DNA of 35,000 bases from NCBI GenBank assembly GCA_001602645.1, contig LUYE01000004.1, positions 1 to 35,000 of the forward strand, read 5' to 3'. This stretch comes from Methanosarcinales archaeon Methan_01 (lineage in GTDB: Archaea > Halobacteriota > Methanosarcinia > Methanotrichales > Methanotrichaceae). Below the pieces are notes generated by a model. The model was not told the origin of the DNA. It ran no database searches and saw only the letters and a list, made by a program, of their open reading frames with translations. Both the position numbers and the translations under genes were made by a program. Below are positions 22,123-32,141 of the stretch, piece by piece; the first letter of the stretch is position 1; the number at the start of each line of letters is the position of its first letter.

Positions 22123-22488
22123 ATGGCCCCAGAAGATAGCTCCTCCGTGGATCTCGAGGTTGGGCCACCTGAGGGCGGCCCGACCGAGGGGGACGGGACG
22201 GAGCCTCGCTGGTGGGATTCTGCCGAAGGGCACAGGTTCGCCCTGGAAGTCCTCCAGCTGAGGGTGAGGAGATCCATCTTGAAGACGGTCGACGATGGCG
22301 TCGGCTCCCCGGAGGAGATCGCCGAGAAGCTGGGGATCGATGGGGGTCTTGCCTCCTTCCACCTTGCGATGCTGGAGAAGGCCCTGGTCGTCGAGGCTGT
22401 CGATGGCGTCTACAGGTCCACCCCCACCGGTCGCCTCTACCTCGAGAGGGTCGAAGCTCCTCCTACGGAAGGCCGGGGACGTTCCTGA
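22123..22488 (+). CDS. Winged-helix DNA-binding protein (ArsR-like)
   Basis: The 121-aa protein has a disordered acidic N-terminus (residues 1-30) and a winged helix-turn-helix (about 38-110): RRSILKTVDDGVGSPEEIAE, KLGIDGGLASFHLAMLEKAL, then the wing VDGVYRSTPTGRLYLER. It probably represses or activates a local gene; the divergent GNAT gene 88 bases away is the obvious candidate, with both promoters sharing that gap. The ribosome binding site is weak. Confidence 0.75.
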   Translation: MAPEDSSSVDLEVGPPEGGPTEGDGTEPRWWDSAEGHRFALEVLQLRVRRSILKTVDDGVGSPEEIAEKLGIDGGLASFHLAMLEKALVVEAVDGVYRSTPTGRLYLERVEAPPTEGRGRS

Positions 22489-22597
22489 GGTCGGCGGCAC
22501 CTTCCGTCGCCGGTGGGCAGAGATCCACTTCTCCCATCGGGGATGGCGTAAGGCCCAGACCTTCTCCCAGGGCATCGCCGGTAATGTAGCAACTTAA

Positions 22598-22614
22598 CCG
22601 AAAAGCTTAATACT
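22598..22614 (+). promoter_or_regulatory. Promoter before a non-coding stretch
   Basis: CGAAAA (BRE-like) followed by GCTTAATACT (22605-22614) is a good archaeal promoter. A transcript would begin near 22634, where no plus-strand gene follows. Confidence 0.5.
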
Positions 22615-22633
22615 AAATATGACTTCATCATCC

Positions 22634-22820
22634 CTTGCCGCGCGGAACGCGAGATCCTGACCTCCACCGCAGAAACGCCGTGCCAAAACTGTGCCCATTG
22701 GACAGAATGGGGCTTGGACGTTGAGCGACGTCTGGGCCCCCTCTCCCGCTATGGGTTTGGGGTGGGGCCGGAGGTCCACCGCTGGCAGAGACGCTCTCCG
22801 TCCAGAACGCATCAGACCGT
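22634..22820 (+). ncRNA. Candidate structured non-coding RNA
   Basis: Between a good promoter (22598-22614) and a T-rich terminator (22820-22835) lies a GC-rich stretch without a plausible gene. A 13-pair stem spans 22709-22740: GGGGCTTGGACGT pairs with ACGTCTGGGCCCC around the loop TGAGCG, with three consecutive G-U pairs that work only in plus-strand RNA. Further pairings are CCATT/AATGG near 22685-22700, and GACCTCC with GGAGGTC across about 115 nt. It does not match tRNA, 5S or signal recognition particle RNA that I recognise. A minus-strand 72-codon frame exists but has no family resemblance. Confidence 0.45.
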
Positions 22821-22835
22821 CTTTTTCTTCTTTTT
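22820..22835 (+). terminator. T-rich terminator
   Basis: Two T5 tracts with few interruptions on the plus strand, the usual archaeal termination signal, lie directly after the candidate RNA and before the convergent phosphatidyltransferase gene. Confidence 0.5.
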
Positions 22836-22847
22836 ATAAAACCTGGG

Positions 22848-23471
22848 TCAGCCCCCTTTGCCGTACTTCATCGCGAGGGCGATCCTCTGGACGGCGGTGA
22901 GGTTGGAGAGGAAGGCGGCGAGGACTATCGCCCCCAAAAGCCAGCCGTCGCCGAATAGAAGGGCCCCCATCATCCCGGCATAGATGAGGATCAGCCTCTC
23001 GCCCCTCTCCAGGAGCCCTCCCATATTCTTCGCCAGAACCTCCTGATCCTTGACGAGCCCCCGGTGGTCGGCGTAGGCCCGGACGAAGGAGGTCATCACC
23101 GCCCCGAAGATGAGGATCCCTGCCCAGGCGCCTATTGGGATGATGAACTCGGCCTCGGGGCCGATATAGAATAGAAGCCCCAGGATCAGGAGCGCCTCGA
23201 CGTACCTGTCGAGGACCCCGTCGAGGAAGGCGCCGGCCGCTGAGGTCTGGCCGGCAGTCCTCGCCACCGCGCCGTCGACCACGTCGAGGAAACCCGATAG
23301 GAGGAACAGTAGGAAGCCGAGGAGGAGCTGGCGGCCCACCAGGGCTAAGAAACCCCAGATGGCGACGGCCAGGGCGAGGGCGGTCCAGGAGTTGGGGGAT
23401 AGGCCGAGGCGGGCGAGGCCAGCCAGCAGCCTGTCGACCTTCCTTCCGTCCACCAGACGGGACTTGAGCAT
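22848..23471 (-). CDS. CDP-alcohol phosphatidyltransferase
   Basis: This membrane enzyme transfers a phosphatidyl- or archaetidyl group from a CDP-linked lipid to an alcohol such as an inositol, glycerol or serine derivative. The complete family motif is visible: Asp63, Asp66-Gly67, Ala70-Arg71, Gly80, Asp84 and Asp88. About six hydrophobic segments are present in 207 aa. It may be an archaetidylinositol phosphate synthase, but the alcohol is not certain. The minus-strand TATA box GTTTAATACC (23492-23501) lies about 25 bases before the ATG, so the message may be leaderless. Confidence 0.9.
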   Translation of the reverse strand: MLKSRLVDGRKVDRLLAGLARLGLSPNSWTALALAVAIWGFLALVGRQLLLGFLLFLLSGFLDVVDGAVARTAGQTSAAGAFLDGVLDRYVEALLILGLLFYIGPEAEFIIPIGAWAGILIFGAVMTSFVRAYADHRGLVKDQEVLAKNMGGLLERGERLILIYAGMMGALLFGDGWLLGAIVLAAFLSNLTAVQRIALAMKYGKGG

Positions 23472-30774: not shown

Positions 30775-30836
30775 GTTCGCTCCGGCAGCCCCGGTATATT
30801 CAGTTTCCTGCTAAAAGGTAAAGGAGGAAAAAGAAC

Positions 30837-32141
30837 GTGTCTGACAAAATAGACCTCTATAGTGACCGTGGCGTTCTTTTAAAGAGTGACGTTGACCTGA
30901 GCGCCGTCAGCCCACTCAAGAACGCAGCGATGAAGAAGCTGATCAACCTGACCAAGCGGACAGTGGCGGTCAACCTGGCAGGGATCGAGAACGCTCTGAA
31001 GACCGGAAAGGTCGGAGGGCAGGGCAGGCAGATAAAGGGCCGCGAGCTCAAATACGACGTCGTCGCCAACGCCGACTCCCTCGCTGCCGAGATCAAGAAG
31101 CTCCTCCAGGTCGAAGCCGGAGACGACACCGCAGTCAAGGTCCTGGGTGGAGGAAAGCAGCTCCTGGTCCAGGTGCCCACCGCCAGGGTCGACGCCGCCT
31201 CTGAGTTCGTCGTCGGCACTACCGCTACCGCAGCCGCTGCCTGTGAGGCGCTCGTCACGAAGTTCAAGGCCGGCATGTTTGAAGCCCCCATGATCCACGC
31301 AGCCGTCTGGGGCCAGTACCCGCAGACCGTCCCCATGGCTGGCGGAAACATCGCCTCTGTTCTCAACATCCCCCAGAATGATGAAGGTCTCGGCTTCGCT
31401 CTTCGAAACATCATGGCAAACCACATCGCAGCCATCACCAAGAGGAACGCCATGAACGCCGCTGCCCTCTCTTCCATCTACGAGCAGATCGGGAACTTTG
31501 AGATGGGCAACGCCATAGGCATCTTCGAGAGGTATCAGCTCCTCGGCCTCGCCTACCAGGGCCTCAACGCCAACAACATGGTCTACGACCTCGTCAAGTC
31601 CAACGGCAAGACCGGGACCATCGGGACCGTCGTCCACAGCGTCGTAGAGAGGGCCATCGAGGACAAGGTCATCAAGGCCGGCGAGAAGCTCCCCTCTGGG
31701 TTCGTCATGTACGAGGCAAACGACGTCCCCATGTGGAACGCATACTGTGCGGCAGGCACCCTAGCTGCCACCATGGTCAACTGCGGCGCTCTCCGAGGCG
31801 CTCAGGCCGTCTCCTCGACCCTGCTGTACTTCAACGACGTCATCGAGAAAGAGACCGCCCTGCCCGGCTGTGACTGGGGCAAGGTCATGGGAACTGCTGT
31901 CGGGTTCTCCTTCTTCAGCCACTCCATCTACGGCGGCGGCGGACCTGGCGTATTCAACGGCAACCACGTCGTGACGAGGCACTCTCGAGGATTCGCCATC
32001 CCCTGCGTGTCTGCAGCGGTTGCTCTTGACGCCGGCACTCAGATGTTCACTCCGGAGATGACTTCCGGACTGGTCGGAGCCGTTTACGGAGAGATCAAGG
32101 AGTTCCGCGAGCCTATCGTAGCAGTTGCGGAGGCTGTATAG
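30837..32141 (+). CDS. mcrB: Methyl-coenzyme M reductase beta subunit
   Basis: McrB is one of three subunits of the nickel-F430 enzyme that reduces methyl-coenzyme M with coenzyme B to methane and the heterodisulfide. The 434-aa protein has the active-site segment SIYGGGGPG (residues 363-371), then [17 protein letters not shown]. The GTG start at 30837 follows AAGGAGG at nine bases. It is the first gene of the operon and is 15 bases before mcrD. Confidence 0.98.

Follow-up and report, generated by a model that had tools for sequence, protein, structure and literature searches.

A predicted small RNA gene of the Methanothrix harundinacea/Methanocrinis group with a promoter box apparently common to other putative small RNAs and, in part, to nikR

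In the window, meaning the whole stretch of 35,000 nucleotides that was analysed, a promoter-like element, a folded body and a T-rich end follow each other on the plus strand between two genes. The initial annotation proposed a new non-coding RNA gene at this site, which raises the question of whether the gene is real and, if so, what controls it and what it may act upon. The predicted RNA is here called RNA-A, and the features referred to below are the following.

22123-22488, plus strand: helix-turn-helix gene, 148 bases upstream of RNA-A, with HTH matches below the Pfam cut-offs
22586-22591, plus strand: GTAGCA, the left half-site of an operator proposed to read GTARYA-N16-TATTAC, present as GTARCA in the RNA-A promoters of 9/9 genomes
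22599-22613, plus strand: BRE CGAAAAG (22599-22605) and TATA-like element CTTAATAC (22606-22613), the last six bases of which, TAATAC (22608-22613), are the proposed right half-site
22607-22624, plus strand: TTAATACTAAATATGACT, identical at 16 of 18 positions to TTATTACTATATATGACT in the promoter of this genome's nikR
about 22637-22836, plus strand: predicted small RNA, RNA-A
22637-22750, plus strand: conserved core of RNA-A (model R1), 114 bases, in 9/9 genomes of the genus
22654-22671, plus strand: anti-Shine-Dalgarno-like motif AUCCUGACCUCCACCGCA, predicted to be mostly unpaired, conserved, with a GAACUCC variant in three genomes
22709-22740, plus strand: covarying hairpin with the invariant loop region GUUGAGCGAC at 22720-22729
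22741-22750, plus strand: C-rich CUCUCCCGCU on the 3' side of the hairpin, conserved, altered in G006 and G007
22814-22836, plus strand: AGACCGUC and terminator-like T-rich end
22848-23471, minus strand: CDP-alcohol phosphatidyltransferase gene (PF01066), convergent with RNA-A

The start near 22637 was placed by the onset of conservation and by the expected distance of about 26 nt downstream of the TATA centre, and the 3' end was placed within the T-rich stretch by AGACCGTC and the T-run, with AGACCGT and a T-rich stretch present in 8/9 sequences. In G001, the 3' half of RNA-A is absent and a shortened end follows directly after the core. A DNA search with 22590-22850 gave matches in all nine genomes of the genus, which here is the Methanothrix harundinacea/Methanocrinis group and includes the genome of the window (G000, contig C21). 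The E-values range from 1e-133 to 7e-9, and the matches extend from the promoter into the RNA body. With strict filters, the core model R1 identified the same nine genomes and none of 41 genomes from ten other genera of the order. The convergent downstream gene was retained at all six genus loci whose DNA reached through it. The BRE/TATA box pointed out in the initial annotation proved to be nearly invariant in 9/9 genomes, and the T-rich end was found as described, with the sequence AGACCGTCTTTTTCTTCTTTTT at 22814-22835.

The folding energy alone was not significant and could not carry the claim of an RNA gene: the minimum free energy of 22634-22835 was -79.5, compared with -73.4 +/- 4.2 for shuffled sequences (z -1.44), and 16/200 shuffles were equal or better. 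Compensatory changes in relatives, suggested beforehand as a check, were found. In the 120-column core alignment, 93.1% of the pair cells were formed as compared with 87.2 +/- 1.5 after shuffling, and the covariation score of 0.259 was reached by none of 500 shuffles (0.164 +/- 0.023), with slid controls at 0.04-0.10. All 500 shuffles were beaten by three of the five covariation measures, but not by the other two; neither the pairs with a double change (4, as compared with 2.5 in shuffles; 58/500) nor the further pair types (10, as compared with 9.1; 168/500) were significant. Beside the loop of the main hairpin, four genomes have a C-G pair where four others have G-C, and the loop itself, GUUGAGCGAC, is unchanged. 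The stem at 22709-22740 does contain the three consecutive G-U pairs from which a plus-strand RNA had been predicted. Consistently, G-U cells exceed A-C cells in the main hairpin by 8 to 2, or by 17 to 2 if the invariant closing pair is counted, and the plus strand is therefore favoured. We judge the gene to be real because it is conserved, not because of its folding energy, and 22637-22836 almost certainly encodes a conserved small RNA in plus-strand orientation. Its class had been left unrecognised, and a search with Rfam likewise gave no family above the gathering threshold at this locus or at the loci of the relatives; RNase P, tRNA and the Rfam families were rejected as identities. With a conserved promoter of its own, a terminator-like end and no conserved reading frame, RNA-A has the gene layout expected of a trans-acting small RNA.

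What goes beyond the initial annotation is the promoter, which, as judged by sequence comparison, is a dedicated regulatory box common to other predicted small RNAs and, in its right half, to nikR. The box of RNA-A reads GTAGCA-N16-TAATAC and is laid over the TATA element, which would place a proposed operator with NikR geometry in the core promoter. A 34-35-base pattern of this region, with up to three mismatches, had 16 matches in the genus, all of them at RNA-type loci, and its reversed control had none in 50 genomes of the order. The matches comprise RNA-A in 9/9 genomes and one to two further places in six of the nine, at the conserved intergenic sequences RNA-B and RNA-C described below. 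A slightly looser pattern was found in 13/50 genomes, including all nine of the genus with further sites, again with no match to the control. Outside the genus, the looser pattern was followed by a small PUA gene in three genomes, and G049 contained three RNA-type loci, a term that in other genera denotes loci without a convincing gene start nearby. The 21-base core alone, with up to two mismatches, gave 79 matches in the 50 genomes as compared with 23 for its reversed control. In the stretches examined, which cover part of the 79 matches and were assigned to classes after inspection, nine of the core sites precede nikR, ten precede stand-alone PUA genes, three a NikA-like protein gene and three a response regulator gene, and others lie at RNA-type loci. 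The comparison of boxes was based on 63 sites and left out six with other genes or none (L112, L116, L121, L122, L125 and L141). The tRNA and RNase P promoters that were examined do not have the box. In G000, a 13-base form occurs five times (at RNA-A, RNA-B, nikR, a Fur-type regulator recognised by eye and one gene-less place), and this form is not enriched, since its reversed control occurs nine times. The recurrence of the RNA-A promoter box before other putative small RNAs, seen in these sequence searches, is the main novelty of this study.

NikR was found in 48/50 genomes of the order. In G000, a NikR_C match lies at C30:42737-42967, and the NCBIfam model for the nickel responsive regulator scores above its cut-off. 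Among the 68 NikR matches in the order, 40 nikR genes were examined, and 39 of these, including that of G000, have TTAWTACTA within 120 bases upstream; these promoters cannot be counted as independent where the species are related, and the weight of this observation rests on the sharing of the sequence with unrelated RNA genes. No TTAWTACTA was seen in 800,000 background bases, obtained by counting both strands in 20 arbitrary 20-kb stretches from two genomes. The nikR promoters contain the right half of the box alone and lack the left half-site; the right half is also found before the NikA-like genes. The spacing was counted at 27 distinct sites of other genera, which belong to RNA-type, PUA, solute-binding and response-regulator loci (nine nikR sites excluded). 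GTA is located exactly N16 upstream of the right half in 11 cases and RTA in 19, while other spacings from N8 to N28 gave at most three for GTA and at most nine for RTA. In E. coli, the operator bound by NikR reads GTATGA-N16-TCATAC (PMC7055735). The box has the same 6-16-6 geometry and the same GTA...TAC ends, but it differs in the inner bases of the half-sites (GTARYA/TATTAC) and in that it sits on the BRE/TATA. NikR is accordingly named as the best candidate for the protein that would bind the box.

Several of the other genes with the box are linked to nickel. The NikA-like gene encodes a solute-binding protein that scores best, at values below the cut-offs, against the NikA models of NCBIfam. 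A sister RNA in G015 adjoins a cluster of CbiM, CbiQ, ABC ATPase and DUF4198 genes, with nikR on the far side, and a further DUF4198-like gene, recognised by eye in a Methanothrix context, also has the box. The stand-alone PUA-domain genes under the box are about 63-72 codons long, and the one in G015 is divergent from genes for a periplasmic binding protein and a CobN-like protein. PUA mini-proteins were seen under the box at L101, L117, L123, L124, L132, L134, L138, L139, L142 and L192, and in one genome such a gene is divergent from an RNA-type locus. It is possible that these mini-proteins are RNA-binding partners of the small RNAs.

It is likely that RNA-A belongs to a nickel-linked regulon. 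The reading that we favour, with a probability of roughly 0.6, is that RNA-A is a small RNA that is repressed by nickel-NikR, is released when nickel falls and pairs to ribosome-binding sites. Nickel-loaded NikR would bind the box when nickel is plentiful and exclude TBP/TFB; such binding should block transcription because the right half of the box overlaps the TATA element. A drop in nickel would then permit transcription of RNA-A, if the direction of control is as we infer. RNA-A would act in trans, with the anti-Shine-Dalgarno motif UGACCUCC, predicted to be unpaired and located near +22, covering ribosome-binding sites, and nickel would be spared through a lower synthesis of nickel proteins.

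This reading must be weighed against others. RNA-A could be regulatory but respond to a different metal or stress regulator, one with control over nikR as well, for example of the Fur family. Many box sites resemble the palindrome TTACTWAGTAA, the nikR promoters lack the left half-site as described above, and in G000 the palindromic core TTATTACTTAATAA is placed right before the start of the gene at C58:96081, which by eye encodes a Fur-type regulator. However, the two half-sites at N16 have the geometry of NikR, and several genes under the box (the NikA-like gene, the neighbour of the CbiM cluster and the DUF4198-like gene) are linked to nickel, so that we consider control by another regulator unlikely.

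It is less likely still that RNA-A is a structured RNA made constitutively for housekeeping or for binding a protein, such as a guide RNA, an RNase P-like RNA or a scaffold. The invariant hairpin loop GUUGAGCGAC would suit such a role, and a GACAGAA stretch presumably recalls RNase P, but the RNase P RNA of G000 is encoded elsewhere, on C34 (204.5 bits), Rfam gives no match, RNA-A is confined to one genus at the sensitivity of the model, and the box is absent from the housekeeping promoters examined. The distance of just 148 bases from the end of the helix-turn-helix gene and the 69- and 72-codon frames that overlap RNA-A could indicate a 3' UTR, a leader or a small protein gene. This is very improbable, as RNA-A has its own conserved promoter, the downstream gene is convergent, and stops occur together with indels that are not multiples of three between the conserved blocks. 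In particular, the 72-codon minus-strand frame, whose conservation would have spoken against an RNA, contains stops in L003, L004, L006 and L009 and is frameshifted between relatives, and a minus-strand protein was rejected on these grounds.

Repression by nickel-NikR might also extend to other putative RNAs with the same box. RNA-B was identified in G000 (C76, about 58536, minus strand; L189), in G005 (C2:1726740) and in six more genomes. In G000, it faces a FecCD/FecE-type transporter in convergent orientation, and its end, CCCTTTTCTTCTGCC, is very conserved. In the alignment of eight genomes, its predicted fold shows little covariation, with a double change in 1/39 pairs, and since the covariation is scant, RNA-B rests on conservation. 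RNA-C was found under the box in seven genomes (G001:C93, G002:C23, G003:C1, G004:C42, G006:C30, G007:C1:1717810 and G008:C59), and G000:C78:33421 is probably also an RNA-C site. Beyond RNA-A, RNA-B and RNA-C, 12 of the 14 RNA-type loci that were found by their promoters alone contain RRCCTC in their early part, at about +12 to +26, as compared with 1.5 expected from shuffling; L102 and L103 lack it. At +23/+24, RNA-A reads GACCTC or GAACTC in 9/9 genomes, with a mean unpaired probability of 0.35-0.94 for GAMCUC, and RNA-B has a GACCTT-like form at +22/+23 in 8/8. The motif is absent from the early position of RNA-C (0/7). All of these positions assume a start two bases 5' of the conserved GCC of RNA-A. 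The GACCUCC-type motif resembles the 16S rRNA end and would therefore be able to pair with Shine-Dalgarno sequences; pairing of these RNAs to ribosome-binding sites is plausible.

The motif takes the form CCUCCUUUACC in 5/14 RNA-type loci of other genera. This is the exact complement of GGUAAAGGAGG, which is located just 5' of the mcrB start in six of the eight genomes searched (G000, G005, G009, G014, G015 and G024), and sister RNAs in Methanothrix match the mcrB ribosome-binding site over 11/11 nt. Each genome contains between 3 and 11 copies of the 11-mer GGUAAAGGAGG, and among the places read, mcrB was the sole recurring one near a gene start. Targets were ranked by contiguous pairing with accessibility against background leaders. 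Three RNAs with CCUCCUUUACC were ranked in G015: the mcrB leader came 3 and 10 of 161 for two of them and 4 for the third, another RNA with a hairpin, and cdhA ranked 15, 4 and 8. These data make mcrB a candidate target of the Methanothrix sister RNAs, and control of mcr is a lead that comes from them. RNA-A, tested in G005, showed no preference, with mcrB at rank 57 and cdhA at 58 and 106 of 142 leaders, and because these ranks are unsupportive, we claim no target for it. The mcrB and cdhA leaders were likewise not favoured by RNA-B (ranks 122, 45 and 93). The pattern of RNA-A complements was in modest excess, with 9 to 45 matches per strand and genome as compared with 10 to 33 for the control; no start-proximal complement stood out, and no conserved ribosome-binding site was seen among the examined places of the matches listed. 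GAACUCC replaces GACCUCC in three genomes with no matching change in any target examined.

Other leads on pairing were dropped. Full-length duplex energies without accessibility gave meaningless ranks, with mcrB between 84 and 105 for five RNAs and at 19 for a sixth, against 141 or 160 background leaders. Two pairings of RNA-A were noticed by eye: that of CUCUCCCGC with GCGGGAGA in the mcrB leader, where RNA-A is altered in G006 and G007 and the mcrB leader of G006 is not, and that of UGACCUCC with the second cdhA ribosome-binding site, where RNA-A differs in G003 and G006. The 3' end of RNA-C seemed by eye to be complementary to the first cdhA ribosome-binding site, a lead that was dropped.

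The closest precedent is found in Helicobacter pylori, where the small RNAs Nrr1, Nrr2 and IsoB/NikS are repressed at their promoters by nickel-NikR (PMC5385501, PMC9294342). The predicted logic is the same, but RNA-A has an archaeal promoter, its control by NikR is inferred, and each genome holds several sister RNAs with a common anti-Shine-Dalgarno-like motif. We know of no sequence relation between RNA-A and the H. pylori RNAs. RyhB is a Fur-controlled iron-sparing RNA, by which metal shortage leads to derepression and less synthesis of metal enzymes. The logic proposed here is alike, but it concerns nickel rather than iron, in Archaea, and no target of RNA-A is supported. In Methanosarcina mazei, sRNA162 is described as a small RNA that acts in trans on mRNAs (PMC3510493). 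Both are methanogen small RNAs, with trans action being a proposal in the case of RNA-A. No nickel box is known to us in the sRNA162 system.

Methanogens need much nickel, for MCR with F430 and for CODH/ACS, and to our knowledge little is known of how they ration it. A literature search without full texts gave no report of a nickel-responsive small RNA in Archaea. If the repression by NikR is true, there would be a class of nickel-responsive small RNAs in Archaea, as the counterpart of RyhB for iron, and the link between NikR and small RNAs would extend from one bacterium into a second domain. If mcrB is a target in Methanothrix, the availability of nickel would influence methane production through translation. 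A tentative and rather doubtful extension is that Methanotrichaceae have a nickel-sparing RNA class, several members of which would be released together by NikR, possibly with PUA partners; their motif would stop nickel enzymes from being translated, beginning with methyl-coenzyme M reductase, and nickel would set the rate of methanogenesis.

Some further observations were made on the way. Several genera have a further conserved element, a short hairpin whose loop contains CCUCCUUUACCC and whose promoter is of a different, TATATA type (L241, L258, L261, L237, L255, L248 on the reverse strand of a GGGTAAAGGAGG match, and G000:C83 near 96516); its sequence is complementary to the mcrB ribosome-binding site. 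The mcr operon itself begins in the window (30817-31388), 8 kb from RNA-A, and its mcrB leader contains GGTAAAGGAGG, followed by a GTG start. On the minus strand of the window, 15722-15815 matches, with 49.8 bits, the ribosomal protein leader that Rfam lists as L4-Archaeoglobi, here in a genome outside the Archaeoglobi, and 248-343 is a tRNA of 96 bases by Rfam with no ARAGORN match, which perhaps contains an intron.
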